In this document: piece by piece, positions 23,405 through 31,696 of the stretch
Position numbering within the stretch: position 1 is the first letter of the stretch
Layout: each line of letters begins with the position of its first letter
From: a bacterium
GTDB lineage: Bacteria > Verrucomicrobiota > Verrucomicrobiia > Limisphaerales > UBA8199
Length of the DNA: 60,961 nucleotides
Assembly: GCA_021784555.1 (NCBI GenBank)
Contig: JAJYHY010000005.1
Span: 1-60,961, forward strand
Reading direction: 5' to 3'
Translations under genes and position numbers: made by a program
Notes under the pieces: generated by a model
The model's input: the letters and a program-made list of their open reading frames with translations, nothing else
Databases searched by the model: none
Told to the model about the DNA's origin: nothing

Positions 23405-25315
23405 TCAACGGACGCTTTCTTGGCTTGATTGGAAGAGATGGCTGCTCTTCGCCGCCTTCTCAAACAACATTTGGCTTAGCCCAAAGGAGAGCGGATAGCG
23501 TGGCCCACTGCCCGGGGTTGCCAAACTCCAATAGCCGACTCGGCCCTTGCGGCGAACAAGACTGACGGAAAAGGTCCAATCCGGCGCTTCGCCGATGAAC
23601 TCATCAGGGCGGGATGCGGCGGAACTCTCATCTCCAGCGTGCGCTTCCGCAGGCGACCAGATTATCACCCCCTCCGAGAGGACGCGACGTACCTCATTCT
23701 CAACCTCGGCGCTGGTTCGCACATTGCCGAATCCTATGGTGTAGTGTTTGTTGCGAACCCAGACCTCGACCGTTTTGGGGAGCCTCGAGGCCGGGACCTG
23801 GAGCAGGCAAATGCCAGTATATCCGATATGTCCGAGATTGGAAATTCCAATCGCGCCCCGGAACAGAACCCTGATTTCCTGGCCCGCCGCATCCCAGGCT
23901 TTAAGGACAACATCATTGCTTGTGGGATGCTCTGGCATGGGAAAGCTGGTCAACTGCATGGAGTTAGTGTTAAGCGAGGGGTCATAGAGCACCCTGGCTC
24001 CAACGTGTCCGACATTGGAACCTGCGGTGACTATGCCTTTGGCAATGACCGGTGCCTCGTCAGGGGGTTCTTCCGATGTCCTTTCGGCCAGCTTGTAACG
24101 AATCTTCACGCAGCCAGGCTCGCTGGCCAGACCAAGAATCTGGAGAATGCCCCTTCCGCCCTCGCGCGTCAGAAACAGGTAGGTATCCGGCTTGCCCGGC
24201 GCCGCTACGATTTGGTGCATCCGGCGCGGCGCCGTGTGGTTGAGATGCCAGTCTTCCACCACGTCACCGGGAGTCACCGTCTCCCAGCCGTTGGTGGGGG
24301 CTGGAGTGAGCACCATATCAAACCCCAACAGCACAGGGACATGGAGGCCCCTCGGAATGGCCATCCCCTGTAGCGCGGTGGCCGGGGCGATCTCGGCGAC
24401 GACATCCATGCCGTTGGTAGCTATCCAGTCGTGGCCGGCGCGAGTCTCCCAAGCTATCGTCGAATGCGTTTCCGCGTGACGCAGGTCGAGGTCCAGCCAG
24501 GACGGCCATGTCGGCTTGCCCGGCACTTGGCCGGGTGGGGCAGGTGGAAAAGCCGGCAGGATGGTGTCCACGGGATACCTGAAAGTCCAGGCTTGCCTCG
24601 TGCGGACCACAGCGCGGTTGAGGCAATCCACAATTGTGAGAGCCATGTGCGGAGCATGGTCGTCGGTAATGACTTCCTTTCCGCCGCGGAGTGGACCCCG
24701 GATCGTGAAGACCGAAAGGACGAGCTGGCCATGGTAAACGATGGCCAGCCGGCGATTGATATTCGTGGCCGAGATCGCCGTAAAGGCTTGTGCTCCCGCC
24801 GGAGTGAATTGCACAACGATCTGGCGCCGCCCATTCGATGAGAACTCCAGGCCCGCCTGGCTCACCGCCGACCCGTCGAGCAACACCTTCCGAGAGACGC
24901 GGATCATTTCGGGAGGGTGGACCTGTCTGCCATGGGGGTAAGGGAGCTTGTCCGCAGCTTCGGACGATTCTGCTGGGAGCACCAGGCGGAATTACAGGGC
25001 CTCGGCATGCTGGTTCGATGTGGCCGGCCCGGACCGGTCCGGTTCCTGCGGGGGACTGAAGCGGTCTTTGGCCAGGTCCGTCGTGTTCTCCATCGGGCTT
25101 CCATCCCTGTTGCTGATCCCAAGGGGGACGGACGAGGGATCAGCCGCCCGGCTTGGGAAGCCGGGCAACAGAAGGAAGCCCAAGCCCAGGAAGGCGGTGG
25201 TTATGGAGGCCGAAAGGCGATACGCCCGAAGAGGACGGTGCCCTATGCCCTGCTCAACGCGGGGGGTCACGGAGAATGACCCGGAGGTGGCCGAAGGAAA
25301 AACTGTGGTCTTCAT
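23405..25315 (-). pseudogene. SecDF-P1-head-like protein gene with an in-frame TAA
   Basis: From ATG 25315 the frame encodes a signal peptide (SASITTAFLGLGFLLLPGFP) and reaches EAL at 24995, a TAA at 24992-24994, and then continues in the same frame FRLVLPAESSEAADKL. LxFRLV is how a SecD P1-type domain starts, and the following part matches it: VSRKVLLDGSAVSQAG, then VQFTPAGAQAFTAISATNIN and RLAIVYHGQLVLS. A CAA-to-TAA change fits best. The remaining ~400 residues are beta-rich and unassigned. If read as two genes, the second would start at GTG 24982 without a signal peptide. It begins one base after the upstream gene's stop. Confidence 0.65.
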
Positions 25316-26204: not shown

Positions 26205-27416
26205 CTAACGGCTGCGCTGATGGGGCTCGATCACGTAGTTCCACTCTCCGTGGAACGTGTTGCGCCGCAGGTTCACCTCCTTCATCTCCTGGGCGCTCAC
26301 CTTTCTGCCCGTCGGATACTGGCGGCGATCCAGCCGACAGGTCACGCTCAGTCCTTTGGCGGTCGTGGTCCTAGCAATCAGGTTCACGATGGTCTGGTAG
26401 TCTCGCAACGGTTCGCCTCGCCAGTTAGAGGAAATGAACGAGAAGAGTCGGTGCTCGATCTTATTCCACTTACTGGTGCCCGGCGGAAAGTGGCAGACCG
26501 ACAGGGATAACCCGCTCTCATCGGCAAAACGCTGCAACTCCAATTTCCAAAGTCGCAGACGCCAACCATTGCTGCCTCCGCCATCGGCGGTGATGAGCAG
26601 CGTCTGAGCATGCGGATAGATCGCTCGGCCTTCGTAGCGCCACCAGCCCCCGATCGACGCCACCGCAAAAGCCCCCGTGTCGTGGTCCGTCCCCACGTTC
26701 ACAAATCCGGTGTTCCGTCCGATATCATAGATCCCATACGGATAGGCCCGAGGCACCTCCGGAGCCGCAAAATCGTGCCCTTTGACCCGTGTCGGGTGCT
26801 TGGCCACCTGCCACTGCTGCCCCCCATTGGCGTAGTTGCCCACCAACTCCTTCTTCTTGGTGTCCACCGAAATCACCGGCGCCCCTACCCTCAGCGCCCG
26901 CTTTACCGCATTCTTGATATGCCGAAACTGCGCATCCCGGTCCGGATGGTCCTCCCCTTCCTCCAGCTTACGGTTGCTTTGCAGACTGTAGTCCTGCTCG
27001 TGGAGCAATTGGCCCACCCGGACATAGCTCACGGGGTGACGCCGCCGCGTCAATTCGGCCGCCAGGGTGCGCGTGCTCTTGCAGACCCAGCGCAGCGGCG
27101 ACTCGGGATCGCCACGAGTGCCGCCTTCAATCAACTCATCCAGCGCCGCCGCTAATCCCGGATCCAGGACTTTGAGGTTCTTGCGTCCCGCCCCCGGGCG
27201 CCGGATCCGCTCGGCCAGTGAGGAGTCTCCGGCTTGAATCTCGCCAATCCCCTTGGCGATGGCCTTCCGAGACAGCCCACAGGCCCGGTGGACCAGGGAG
27301 ACCCCGCCATACCCCAACTGCATCGCTTCGTTGGCTGCCGTCAAACGTCTCGTCCGCTCATTTAACAGCGGCCAAATGGCTCGCAACTTCTGCTTCAGCA
27401 TCGCGATAGGACTCAT
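26205..27416 (-). CDS. ISAzo13-type DDE transposase
   Basis: A 403-residue transposase, apparently intact. An N-terminal helix-turn-helix region (LVHRACGLSRKAIAKGIGEI) is followed by the catalytic domain: first aspartate in VISVDTKKKELVGNYANGGQ, second in LLITADGGGSNGWR, and glutamate in FPPGTSKWNKIEHRLFSFI. These are the hallmark segments of the ISAzo13 family. It cuts and joins the element ends. Starts at ATG 27416 or 27401. The intact frame suggests the copy was mobile recently. Confidence 0.92.
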   Translation of the reverse strand: MSPIAMLKQKLRAIWPLLNERTRRLTAANEAMQLGYGGVSLVHRACGLSRKAIAKGIGEIQAGDSSLAERIRRPGAGRKNLKVLDPGLAAALDELIEGGTRGDPESPLRWVCKSTRTLAAELTRRRHPVSYVRVGQLLHEQDYSLQSNRKLEEGEDHPDRDAQFRHIKNAVKRALRVGAPVISVDTKKKELVGNYANGGQQWQVAKHPTRVKGHDFAAPEVPRAYPYGIYDIGRNTGFVNVGTDHDTGAFAVASIGGWWRYEGRAIYPHAQTLLITADGGGSNGWRLRLWKLELQRFADESGLSLSVCHFPPGTSKWNKIEHRLFSFISSNWRGEPLRDYQTIVNLIARTTTAKGLSVTCRLDRRQYPTGRKVSAQEMKEVNLRRNTFHGEWNYVIEPHQRSR

Positions 27417-27828: not shown

Positions 27829-28335
27829 ATGCTAATTGTAGGCATGTTATATAGGTATGACATCAATTATACATCTCTGCTCCAGGCCTCGAACGGCTCT
27901 CTGCGCGAGCGCCAGGCCGAAAGCTTCGGCGCCCTGTGGGTGGTCGATCAGGTCGCCCAGCGCCTGGGCATCAAGAAGGCCCTGGGCGTCACCCATGAAG
28001 CGGAACTGAGCTACTGGCAGGTCCTGGCCCGGGTGCTGCGCCCGGGCACCTCGCTGCTGGCCATGGTGCGGCTGGCCGGTGCCTGCGCGGCGGCCGCGCT
28101 CCTGGTGAAGAAGGAGTTGGGTTGCCGGGGCGTGACCCTGGTGGGCGACCGGGGCATGATCCGCTCCGACCAAAAGGAAGCGGCCCAGAAGGCGGAGTTT
28201 CATTTCATTACCGCCCTGACCAAGCCGCAGATCCAGAAGCTCTTGGCCGACAAGGTGCTCCAAGCGGGCCTGGCGAAGGCCGCCGATTTGAAGACGCGGC
28301 TCTTCGAGTTGAAAGGCTGGCAAAAGGTGAAGTGA
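27829..28335 (+). pseudogene. IS1634-type transposase with an internal deletion
   Basis: The frame joins two separate parts of an IS1634-family transposase: the N-terminal FGALWVVDQVAQRLGIKKAL...SLLAMVRLAGACAA directly to the mid-domain LGCRGVTLVGDRGMIRSDQK and FHFITALTKPQIQKLL. The ~130 residues normally between them, which include the first catalytic aspartate, are absent, and the C-terminal third is missing too. The join keeps the frame. It follows the MFS fragment and precedes the sigma-factor gene. Confidence 0.7.
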
Positions 28336-28462
28336 AGTGTTGGACGAGGAAAGGCCCAAGGGGGGGAGCCTCTGTGCGGCCCGGGCGGCGCCAAAGCCCG
28401 GACCGACTGAGGGCCAATTTGGGTGTTACCTTTTGGGGGCCGGTGCCGATTCTCTTTGTGGA

Positions 28463-31132
28463 ATGAACGGAACGGACTTATTGGCTCAGTACCGAGAGAC
28501 GCAGGCAGACGGGCCGTTTGGCGAGCTCGTCCGCCGCTACACCAACCTCGTCTATTCGGTGGCCAAGCGGCGCGTCTGGGACCTGGCGCTTGCGCAGGAG
28601 GTGGCGCAACTCGTCTTCATCCGGCTGGCCAAAGCGGTTCCGAAGTTCCACAGCGATGCCGAACTGGTGGCATGGCTGCACCGCACAACCGTCCACGTCT
28701 CCATCGACCTCTGGCGCTCCGAAAGCCGAAGACGCTTGCGGGAAGAGAAAGCCGCCGCCATGCAACCTGACCGCACCGAAAATGATTCCTGGAATGAAAT
28801 CGCCCCCACCCTCGACGAAGCCCTCAACGGGCTGGAGGAGAAGGACCGGCAGGCGCTGCTGCTCCGGTTCTTCGAGCAAAAGACCATGCGCGACCTGGGC
28901 CTGGCGTTGGGCGTCAGCGAAGACGCGGCGAAGATGCGGGTCAGCCGGGCCCTGGACCGGCTGCGCACCCAGCTTGGAACATTAGGCGTGACCTGCGCCG
29001 TGGCCGCGTTGACCACGCTCCTGTCCGAGCGGTCGGTGGAGGCCGCCCCGAGCCAACTGGCCGCCGGCCTGGCCTCTCGTCGGTTTGCGGCGCGCGCAGG
29101 GGCAGGAGCGGGAACCGGCTTGCTCGGGCTGGTGCTCCAGGTTTCCAAGGGCAAATTGGCGCTGGTATCGGCAGCTCTTGTCGTCGGCGCGGTGTTATTC
29201 CTGGCCCACTTGCTGAGCAATCCGACTCGGGGCCCGAAGAGTCAGAACGGTCAGTCGATTGGCTTGACTCAGGGGACAAACCCCGGCGCTCAAGCCGCCG
29301 CCACCAGCGGCGCCGAGACCAACGGCCTTGAAGCCCAGGCCCAGCCGGACCCGGTCAAATTGCTTGAGGGAATCGAGCAAGCCCGCTTGCGGATTGTTAC
29401 CGGCTCAATGGAGTTCCAGGTCTCCCATGTCGAGCTCCGCGGCAGTCGCGCCAGCACCAACGTGGTGCGAGTCAAAACCCTGTTCGACGGGGAAAAGCGC
29501 CGAGTCGAATCCTTTTCTCGTGAGTACGCCTACACGGCCGTGGGCGAGGACGAAACGAAGGCCCAGGAAGCCAAGATGCGCGCCCAAGGGCTGGACCAGG
29601 AAGAAGCGGTGCGCGCCGGCTTGCTCAAGGCCTTTGCGTCCCACCATGTCACGGTTTATGACGGAACCTCGGTGATGGATTATTGCGAAACCAGTGATTC
29701 AGACCATCCCTCGGCGGAGATTTCCGATCCGCGCAAGGGATTTGGGGGCTATCTGTTTGATCCGCACTGTCTGGGTATCACGACTATCTTGTCCCTGTAT
29801 CCCGGCGGGAGCGTCGGGTGGTGGTTGGGTTTGAGCGGGCCGGAATCCGCCAGCCTCGTGGGCGAAGAGACAGTGGACGGGGTCCTGGCTTGGCACATTC
29901 GCGTGCCGCCGGCAGGACAACGATGGGGTACGCGCGACATTTGGGTCGATGCAGCGCATCCGGTCCGTGTCCTTCAGTTTGGCTGGAACGGCGACACCAC
30001 CACGTCCACTTACGATCCATCGAGCGCCGAAGACCCGTTCCCCACCGCCATTACCACCGTGAGTTACAGACACGGGCACCCTATCACGCAGCAGTCGGTC
30101 GCGCGCACGAAAACACAATTGGGCATTGAGGTCGATCCGGCGTCCTTTACCCTCGCCGGGCTGGGGATGAAGGTGGGAACCGACGTCTGCGACGACCGCA
30201 TCAGCAGGGGAATCGGCTATTGGACAGGGAGCGGCCTTTCGGAAAACCTTCCGTGCAAAACGGCCAAGTCCCAGCCTCCGCCCAATCGCACCGAGTTGAT
30301 GGACCTGTTGGCGACCGAACCCGGCACGCCCGACGCCCTCCGGGCCGCGCAGTGGATCATTTTCAACACGCCGGATGGGCCGGACGTGGACCAGGCCGCG
30401 GCGGTGATCGTCAAGAACCATATCCGCGACGCCAACCTGGTGTATCTGAGCGAGCAATTGGAGCGGATGCGCCCCTCCTGCTCCACGATTCTGCTGCAGG
30501 CGATGATGACCAAGAACCCGCATCCGGTGGTCCAGGGTAACGCCTGCTATACACTGGCGGTATTGTCCAAGGCCAGCGCGGATTACGGTAAGAACAAGAA
30601 GGCGACCGCTGAGGCGACGAAGCTCTTCGAGCGCGTCATCTCGGACTTCGGCGACGTGAACAGAAACGGCGCCCGGCTGGCGGACCTGGCAAAGCCGGAG
30701 CTTTATGAACTGCAACATCTTCTCATTGGCATGCCGGCCCCGCAGACTCGGGGTGAAGACCTGGACGGTCAACCGCTGGACCTGGGCGATTACCGGGGCA
30801 AGGTCGTCGTTCTCTATTTCTGGAGCGCGGGCTGCGCGTACCCTGACGATGTGGAGCCGCTGCGCAAGCTTCAGGACCGGATGGCCGGCCAACCGTTTGC
30901 TATCCTTGGCGTTCATGCCGATGACAATACCGCCAAGGCCAAAGCGGTTGCCAAAAAGTGCGAGATGAGCTGGCCCTCCTTCCGCGACGCCCGCCAAGGG
31001 CCGATCGCCACCGCCTGGAATATCAAAGGCTGGCCCACGATTTATGTCCTGGACCGCAACGGCATCATTTGCTACCGCGGGTTTCGAGCCGACGGGCTCC
31101 TCAAGCCGGTGGAGAGCCTGGTGAGGCAATGA
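28463..31132 (+). CDS. ECF sigma factor fused to a transmembrane and thioredoxin-like region
   Basis: An 889-residue protein from ATG 28463. Residues ~15-85 are sigma region 2 (FGELVRRYTNLVYSVAKRRV, LVAWLHRTTVHVSID), ~115-175 region 4 with a helix-turn-helix (KTMRDLGLALGVSEDAAKMR). A hydrophobic helix lies at ~231-251 (KLALVSAALVVGAVLFLAHL), so the remainder should be outside the cytoplasm: an unassigned 450-residue part and a redoxin/TlpA-like domain from ~755 (LDGQPLDLGDYRGKVVVLYF, WSAGCAYPDD). The domain keeps one cysteine of the usual CxxC. One chain thus links promoter choice to a periplasmic sensor-like domain. The sigma part is in one frame with no indel. Confidence 0.86.
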   Translation: MNGTDLLAQYRETQADGPFGELVRRYTNLVYSVAKRRVWDLALAQEVAQLVFIRLAKAVPKFHSDAELVAWLHRTTVHVSIDLWRSESRRRLREEKAAAMQPDRTENDSWNEIAPTLDEALNGLEEKDRQALLLRFFEQKTMRDLGLALGVSEDAAKMRVSRALDRLRTQLGTLGVTCAVAALTTLLSERSVEAAPSQLAAGLASRRFAARAGAGAGTGLLGLVLQVSKGKLALVSAALVVGAVLFLAHLLSNPTRGPKSQNGQSIGLTQGTNPGAQAAATSGAETNGLEAQAQPDPVKLLEGIEQARLRIVTGSMEFQVSHVELRGSRASTNVVRVKTLFDGEKRRVESFSREYAYTAVGEDETKAQEAKMRAQGLDQEEAVRAGLLKAFASHHVTVYDGTSVMDYCETSDSDHPSAEISDPRKGFGGYLFDPHCLGITTILSLYPGGSVGWWLGLSGPESASLVGEETVDGVLAWHIRVPPAGQRWGTRDIWVDAAHPVRVLQFGWNGDTTTSTYDPSSAEDPFPTAITTVSYRHGHPITQQSVARTKTQLGIEVDPASFTLAGLGMKVGTDVCDDRISRGIGYWTGSGLSENLPCKTAKSQPPPNRTELMDLLATEPGTPDALRAAQWIIFNTPDGPDVDQAAAVIVKNHIRDANLVYLSEQLERMRPSCSTILLQAMMTKNPHPVVQGNACYTLAVLSKASADYGKNKKATAEATKLFERVISDFGDVNRNGARLADLAKPELYELQHLLIGMPAPQTRGEDLDGQPLDLGDYRGKVVVLYFWSAGCAYPDDVEPLRKLQDRMAGQPFAILGVHADDNTAKAKAVAKKCEMSWPSFRDARQGPIATAWNIKGWPTIYVLDRNGIICYRGFRADGLLKPVESLVRQ

Positions 31133-31260
31133 AGAAGCGGGGTAACTGCTCAGGCCAAGCTGTCTGGCGTCCGCGCTCCTATCACCCCCTGAGCAGTTAC
31201 GAAGGGGCACAGATTTTCTCGACACGGTTCGTTTGCGAGCGCAAGAATGGATTCGCAATC

Positions 31261-31518
31261 GTGAACGGGGATCACTATCAAATCGAATACAGCGATTCGG
31301 CTCTGGAAGACCTCGACAACTTGCCCGCACGCCCACGCGCGCAAATCCTGCGCAAGCTCGAGCGGCTGGAGCATGGCCTTCACGGCAACATTAAGCGTCT
31401 GCATGGCACCGACGCCGCGTTCCGCCTGCGCATGGGCGATTATCGCGTCTTGTTTGATGTCGAGGATGATGCCATTGTGGTTCGCCGAATTGGCCATCGA
31501 AAGGACGTTTATGACTAG
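31261..31518 (+). CDS. RelE/ParE-type toxin
   Basis: An 85-residue protein from GTG 31261 with the RelE fold pattern: YQIEYSDSALEDLDNLPARP, RAQILRKLERLEHGLHG, IKRLHGTDAAFRLRMGDYRV and LFDVEDDAIVVRRIGHRKDVY. RelE toxins cut mRNA at the ribosome A site; the arginines in FRLRMGDYRV and the final R-x-x-x-Y are the usual functional positions. The gene overlaps the downstream partner by 8 bases; toxin precedes antitoxin, as in HigBA/RelE-reverse cassettes. An open frame runs further upstream, through the end of the sigma gene, and is not coding. Confidence 0.77.
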   Translation: MNGDHYQIEYSDSALEDLDNLPARPRAQILRKLERLEHGLHGNIKRLHGTDAAFRLRMGDYRVLFDVEDDAIVVRRIGHRKDVYD

Positions 31519-31696
31519 AGTTGTGCAACAGACCGTCACGCGCGCCATCTCGCAAAAGCGCCAGCAAATCGCCGCGCTGCGCGAACAACTGGAGGACCTG
31601 GAAGATTATCTGGACTTGGTGGAAGCCCGTGTGCGCGACGAAGGAAAACCGCACCTCACCCAGGCCGAAATCAAAAAGCGCTACGGCTTGAAATAA
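31511..31696 (+). CDS. Antitoxin partner of RelE-type toxin
   Basis: A 61-residue, strongly helical, charged protein (KRQQIAALREQLEDLEDYLD; ends LTQAEIKKRYGLK). It has no clear DNA-binding domain, so it may work only by binding the toxin. Start ATG 31511 lies inside the toxin gene end. Confidence 0.6.
   Translation: MTRVVQQTVTRAISQKRQQIAALREQLEDLEDYLDLVEARVRDEGKPHLTQAEIKKRYGLK

Follow-up and report, generated by a model that had tools for sequence, protein, structure and literature searches.

We found that one gene in the 60,961-nucleotide stretch of DNA analysed here (the window) encodes an ECF sigma factor, a membrane helix and a long outer part as a single polypeptide, and we lean towards reading its product as a membrane-tethered, autoregulated sigma factor that has an envelope sensor built into its own chain and would be released by proteolysis. 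The original prediction that one frame combines sigma regions 2 and 4 with a membrane helix and a TlpA/redoxin-like end was borne out by Pfam, TIGR02937, hydropathy and seven full-length relatives. With a completeness of 87%, the genome assembly spans 8.8 Mb in 658 contigs; the features of the gene are collected in Table 1.

Table 1. Features of the one-chain sigma gene and its upstream region (window coordinates; aa, residues of the protein).
Feature	Position	Strand	Basis
Promoter-like element TGTTACCT-N15-CGATT, presumed autoregulation site	28424..28451	+	Clade-specific occurrence
Whole gene, one-chain ECF sigma factor, 889 aa plus stop	28463..31132	+	Open frame and full-length relatives in seven other genomes
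Sigma-70 region 2 (aa 22-90)	28526..28732	+	Pfam PF04542 Sigma70_r2, 47.2 bits, cut-off 24
Sigma-70 region 4 (aa 117-168)	28811..28966	+	Pfam PF04545 40.7 bits and PF08281 38.2 bits
Juxtamembrane segment with AAP motif (A195-P196) (aa 171-231)	28973..29155	+	Paralogue alignment
Single membrane helix (aa 232-252), read as N-in/C-out	29156..29218	+	Hydropathy and signal-peptide-like starts of stand-alone relatives
Fast-changing linker (aa 253-292)	29219..29338	+	Low pairwise identity
LolA-fold domain (aa 293-596), presumed extracytoplasmic	29339..30250	+	AlphaFold2, Foldseek, VIA
Helical domain (aa 597-752)	30251..30718	+	Model helices 609-752; co-occurs with redoxin in stand-alone secreted relatives
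Pseudo-redoxin domain, TlpA/ResA fold (aa 753-889)	30719..31129	+	Pfam PF00578 51.1 bits; VIA Z 11.8 to 4grf
Degenerate active site C791-A-Y-P794 instead of CxxC/UxxC	30833..30844	+	Alignments

Translation of the window gave 889 codons without an internal stop for this gene. ATG 28463 is probably the true start, because the relatives share the same M(N/S) beginning and show no conservation of the 42 codons that the mechanical ORF, opening at 28337, would add. The relatives were sought with residues 290-599 in 320 genomes of the order, and matches were obtained in 16 genomes. When the whole frames were read, seven further full-length chains that have their parts in the same order and are 39-50% identical to this protein were found in seven other genomes (L100/G009, L131/G277, L132/G285 (= L038), L133/G319, L134/G091, L137/G076 (= L039) and L138/G317), and the proposed search for other sigma proteins built in the same order thus gave a positive answer. 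These chains also ruled out a wrong start or an assembly artefact, as well as the frameshift or alternative start between the sigma and membrane parts that had been considered at the outset. The L136/G249 and L139/G235 genes encode the sigma part, the membrane helix and the middle domain with a second hydrophobic segment at the end and without the redoxin half, and the L135/G151 copy, which has neither a sigma part nor a sigma frame upstream, looks like a truncated gene. The mean pairwise identity among the eight full-length chains was 53% for the sigma part, 42% for the LolA-like middle, 44% for the helical domain and 46% for the pseudo-redoxin, and it fell to 19% in the linker 253-292 as compared with 42-53% for the folded parts. 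Every folded part is constrained, as one chain. The fragmented assembly, an ISAzo13-type transposase gene upstream and the missing sigma part of L135 would suit a chance fusion, an assembly artefact or a decaying gene, but with the same full-length order in seven other genomes and each folded part conserved, this explanation is extremely improbable, and for the architecture it is already refuted.

The region 4 match (Sigma70_r4) covers residues 120-168 with 40.7 bits against a cut-off of 24.1, and TIGR02937 (sigma70-ECF) scored 78.5 against a cut-off of 42.9. The Pfam and TIGR profiles gave no match to region 3 in this protein, and the presence of regions 2 and 4 without region 3 makes it an ECF (sigma-70 group IV) factor. 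The closest sigma parts among named records were from Verrucomicrobiota, including “Verrucomicrobia subdivision 3” and Pedosphaera. Beyond region 4, the AAP motif at 195-196 was, together with G175, the most conserved spot in an alignment of 25 long sigma paralogues, and A195 and P196 were present in 92% of them. A classical anti-sigma domain was considered for the juxtamembrane segment between region 4 and the membrane, and was dropped as Pfam gave no match there; a FecR-type anti-sigma domain was also not matched by Pfam at E up to 1 in this protein.

The topology rests on hydropathy, which was scanned with a simplified, purpose-made transfer scale. The hydrophobic segment 232-252 was the only one present in every full-length relative. 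The segment 171-189 is fairly hydrophobic in this protein and weaker in the other full-length chains, and an Arg/Lys-rich, strongly positive stretch follows it; both features argue for a single N-in/C-out pass, by which the sigma part would be cytoplasmic and the remainder would lie outside the inner membrane. If 171-189 were a second membrane pass, the C-terminus would be cytoplasmic. An outside location of both outer halves is further indicated by their stand-alone relatives, which begin with signal-peptide-like stretches.

The middle part of about 450 residues had been left unassigned in the original prediction, and is now predicted to consist of a LolA-type fold of about 300 residues and an all-helical domain that goes with the redoxin half. 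The model of the full-length protein was weak (pLDDT 53), with the sigma and membrane parts poorly modelled. AlphaFold2 gave a pLDDT of 78 and a pTM of 0.75 for residues 290-599 with two relatives. In Foldseek, this model matched the LolA-superfamily structure 3buu best (E 9e-8); DUF1329, LolA-like proteins and RseB came next, with MucB further down the list. VIA-align gave DUF1329 a Z of 15.1, LolA and LolB proteins about 9-13 and RseB 8.5. The N-terminal helix with an open beta half-barrel that marks the LolA superfamily was seen with AlphaFold2, Foldseek and VIA. The matches at the sequence level were weak and consistent with this fold: DUF2092, a “predicted periplasmic protein” family, matched 2 of 10 middle-domain members (E 3e-4), LolA_like matched one of the 10, and the outer membrane lipoprotein-sorting protein 9tp6 was a borderline hit. 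RseB or MucB was not matched by Pfam in any of the 10 members, and the similarity to RseB is in fold only. Among the stand-alone relatives of the middle domain (L140-L145), most start with a signal-peptide-like stretch and carry, at the C-terminus, a hydrophobic segment with basic residues after it.

The proposed structure prediction and family search of the middle and C-terminal parts thus returned a LolA fold, a helical domain and a TlpA/ResA-like fold. The AhpC-TSA/Redoxin match covers residues 755-871 with a score of 51.1 bits against a cut-off of 26, and the thioredoxin domain 4grf aligned with residues 753-889 at a VIA Z of 11.8. The residues 597-889, that is the helices and the redoxin together, match stand-alone frames in other genomes, and the helical domain is a piece of the redoxin half. 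The active-site stretch reads FWSAGCAYPDD, in which the first Cys of CxxC alone remains, as had been noticed before. No CxxC was present in the alignment of nine copies of this chain type, including the truncated L135; the sequence is CAYP in this protein and CSGE in L100, while the remaining seven carry a 2- or 3-residue deletion and have no Cys in this stretch. The cis-Pro motif is missing in three copies (L132, L134 and L137). The extracytoplasmic redox-type fold proposed earlier therefore stands as a redoxin fold beyond the helix, but its “redox” function does not, given the absence of CxxC in 9/9 and of the active-site Cys in 7/9 copies.

A UxxC motif contains selenocysteine, which is encoded by an in-frame TGA. 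The redoxin matches aligned from other loci numbered 51, of which 33 have CxxC and 11 have UxxC; a few loci entered this count twice, and the other 7 include one sigma-fused locus. Nine stand-alone frames from G036, G041 and G050 have TGA at the first active-site codon in the context FWGDW-U-xPC, one of them with UPTU, and have signal-peptide-like N-termini. A SelB gene scored above the cut-off in these three genomes, and in G036 it lies directly upstream of the redoxin gene. The stand-alone copy in G030 has CGPC. These frames (L101:4007-5119, L102:6628-7812, L103:3230-4321, L104, two in L105, L106, L107 and L108) form a candidate selenoprotein family of the order.

By these comparisons, the redoxin has become a pseudo-enzyme in this lineage and probably acts as a receptor or binding domain. 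The possibility that the lone Cys791, or a disulfide with another outer Cys, reports the envelope redox state to the sigma part was also considered. In its favour, the redoxin fold is genuine, Cys791 falls at the nucleophile position of the relatives in the alignment, and L100 also retains a Cys there. A conserved device, however, cannot depend on an active-site Cys that is present in 2/9 copies, and the loss of the cis-Pro motif in some copies speaks in the same direction. A thiol switch is very unlikely, since CxxC is absent from all the copies while the nearest stand-alone relatives have CxxC or UxxC.

The relation between the sigma parts and the outer parts was monitored by phylogeny. The tree built from 43 sigma domains split the eight full-length chains into two well-separated clades, namely clade A with this protein, L100, L132 and L137, and clade B with L131, L133, L134 and L138; holding them as one sigma clade was rejected (p-AU 1.6e-76). 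The two clades interleave in the middle-domain tree, for which a single clade-A group was rejected (p 0.02); a support of 99/99, for example, joins L132 (A) to L134 (B). By these trees, the outer module has changed its sigma partner more than once.

ECF sigma factors have sigma-specific and usually autoregulated promoters. The promoter-like element of this gene ends 11 nt ahead of the ATG, and its pattern was found 0 times in 100 shuffles of the window. The clade-A consensus GTTAC(C/T)T-N12-15-CG(A/T)TT, about 10 nt ahead of the ATG, was present in 12 of the 13 clade-A genes, in none of 30 others and in 4 of 86,000 shuffled sequences. The clade-B genes have (T)GTCGGATT or a near form of it with a similar second box. 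The strict clade-A pattern matched exactly twice in the own 8.8-Mb genome, ahead of this gene and of L065, the other clade-A sigma gene found there. The other strict match in G009 is 30 nt ahead of a gene for a secreted-looking protein, a possible target, and the strict clade-B motif gave one match, in G277. Relaxing the motif raised the number of matches in the own genome to 6, as compared with 2 for its reversed control, and most of the additional ones have no T-rich stretch after the -35. The strict and relaxed searches in the own genome gave no regulon beyond the gene itself. The upstream element tracks the sigma clade and not the outer module. It resembles what ECF autoregulation would look like, and as a predicted promoter its distance to the ATG implies a very short leader. 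The same outer module on two distant sigma clades, together with a motif that follows the sigma part, indicates that sigma and sensor behave as exchangeable modules.

These results also bear on the possibility that the gene makes two products, in which the outer part would be a working envelope protein for lipid or lipoprotein handling, the sigma part would set its level and cleavage would separate them. Stand-alone secreted relatives exist for each outer half, and the strict element of the own genome is confined to clade-A sigma genes, both of which would be in line with such an arrangement; the loss of the redoxin active site and the free variation of the outer parts among paralogues, with swapping between sigma clades, fit better with sensors and make it distinctly unlikely. 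Homologues in separate genes had been named at the outset as a finding that would speak against the fused protein. Such relatives do occur for both outer halves, yet the fused form is itself conserved, and from their sequences they seem to show the source of the outer parts. We infer that three evolutionary stages are extant, that is, the secreted LolA-like protein with a C-terminal anchor, the sigma-membrane helix-LolA-like protein (L136 and L139) and the full chain, in which a secreted Sec/Cys redoxin unit would have replaced the hydrophobic end and then lost its active site. The L139 gene (L139:794-3548, G235), which has no redoxin, is divergent to a gene for a stand-alone, secreted-type CGPC redoxin.

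The architecture is not a one-off. Sigma region 2 was matched 85 times in the own genome, which has at least 24 further long sigma chains with long extensions; the 24 that were read all have regions 2 and 4, and a clear hydrophobic segment after region 4 was found in 20 of them by the same transfer-energy scan. Their outer parts vary, with carboxypeptidase-regulatory domains in four and HEAT repeats in one or more. We tentatively propose, as a possibility still short of a favoured view, that the order uses combinatorial one-chain ECF sigma factors with a common sigma-linker-membrane cassette, interchangeable outer domains (LolA-fold, pseudo-redoxin, carboxypeptidase-regulatory, HEAT and others) and autoregulatory promoter types specific to each clade, as single-protein counterparts of the sigma/anti-sigma/sensor cascades. 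Among them would be a sigma factor that bears both an RseB-like lipid sensor and a redoxin that has changed its role from that of an enzyme to that of a receptor. Upstream of most of the long sigma genes of the own genome (L064-L089), a TGTC/TGTT-type box is joined by another box some 10 nt ahead of the start; the letters depend on the clade, and may amount to a code that links sigma region 4 to -35 elements. One sigma-redoxin chain of the same genome (L071:672-2705, G000:C406) keeps CGPC intact; its membrane segment is weak, its middle part is unrelated, and its outer part otherwise resembles the stand-alone secreted redoxins. By sequence, it is a better candidate for a genuine redox-sensing one-chain sigma factor.

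In the release mechanism that we favour for the present protein, the anchored sigma would be inactive in the resting state. The LolA-like pocket, the pseudo-redoxin or both may bind an envelope ligand, such as a mislocalised lipid or lipoprotein or a partner protein, upon which the flexible linker 253-292 would be exposed to a site-1 protease. An RseP-like site-2 protease would then cut within the membrane helix, and the freed sigma would transcribe its own gene and further targets; the pseudo-redoxin would take part as a binding domain and not as a thiol switch. The hydrophobic cavity of MucB is known to sense lipids and thereby license the cleavage of the anti-sigma MucA (PMC7400510), and in IutY, a one-chain sigma/anti-sigma protein, Prc and RseP free the sigma (PMC5411451, PMC8999054). 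Against this reading stands the fact that LolA-fold proteins serve many functions. A gene for an RseP-type site-2 protease (M50 peptidase) is present in the genome, which proves little because the family also matched in 14/14 control genomes. Signalling could alternatively proceed without proteolysis if the membrane-bound sigma were switched on by the outer domains through the helix and transcription started at the membrane. No protease site is identifiable in the protein, and the AAP juxtamembrane segment is common to paralogues with quite different outer domains, as would be expected of a common switch; IutY, the only worked-out one-chain anchored ECF factor, is cut, however, and a purely conformational relay seems unlikely.

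The on-board regulatory C-terminus also has counterparts among other ECF groups. The ECF41, ECF42 and ECF56 proteins have SnoaL-type C-terminal extensions without a membrane helix; here the extension crosses the membrane and gave no SnoaL match in Pfam. One-chain anchored ECF factors are already known, with IutY and ECF52 as precedents. IutY of Pseudomonas putida (ECF243) likewise has an N-terminal ECF sigma, a membrane helix and a periplasmic domain in one polypeptide without a separate anti-sigma (PMC5411451, PMC8999054), and here the segment 232-252 occupies the place of the helix between sigma and outer domain. The outer part of IutY is the anti-sigma domain of iron-siderophore cell-surface signalling, whereas that of the present protein is LolA-fold, helical and pseudo-redoxin, and a FecR-type domain was not found in it. 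A C-terminal extension with a membrane helix is also shared with SCO4117 (ECF52) and ECF48/53 of Actinobacteria, SCO4117 having a periplasmic ligand-binding domain (PMC8999054), but the zinc-finger anti-sigma domain of these proteins and the carbohydrate-binding domain of SCO4117 were both not found here. In the RseA-RseB and MucA-MucB systems with sigma-E and AlgU, a periplasmic domain of LolA fold likewise senses lipids upstream of the ECF sigma (PMC7400510). Those systems spread sensor, anti-sigma and sigma over separate proteins, whereas here sensor and sigma are on one chain, with a middle domain that matches RseB in fold alone and DUF1329 and LolA better. The TlpA/ResA thiol-disulfide oxidoreductases have the same fold as residues 753-889, for which the redoxin score is above cut-off, but their CxxC (or UxxC) is absent here and in all nine copies of the chain. 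In the literature searched, outside which key ECF classification work lies, there was no description of a LolA-fold sensor and a dead redoxin on a sigma chain in a domain-swapping family with clade-matched elements. Nothing was found there on one-chain sigma factors of Verrucomicrobia. An earlier description of the architecture in work outside this literature is possible.

If the proposal is true, an envelope-signalling pathway of sensor, membrane relay and transcription factor has been compressed into one gene, and this genome has some two dozen such genes with different outer domains. They would offer a direct way to read the envelope signals sensed by these largely uncultured bacteria, and would form a natural toolbox in which one-part sigma sensors come with the promoters that match them. 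The selenocysteine/cysteine thioredoxin would then exemplify an enzyme domain that became a non-catalytic signalling domain after fusion.

The neighbouring frames tested contained no member of an anti-sigma family, in agreement with the expectation that no anti-sigma gene is adjacent. No conserved operon partner emerged, as the flanking frames of ten loci share only frames that overlap the gene itself and sigma paralogues. Farther upstream, a frame at 23408-24982 (-) matched the SecDF P1 head subdomain (PF22599) and no other SecDF part. The ISAzo13-type transposase (PF07592) is encoded at 26208-27416 (-), upstream of the sigma gene, and the frame 27829-28335 between the two has no Pfam match and reads like the end of another transposase. 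A ParE-type toxin gene at 31246-31515 (+) lies directly downstream of the sigma gene, and beyond it a short frame at 31565-31696 may encode an antitoxin.
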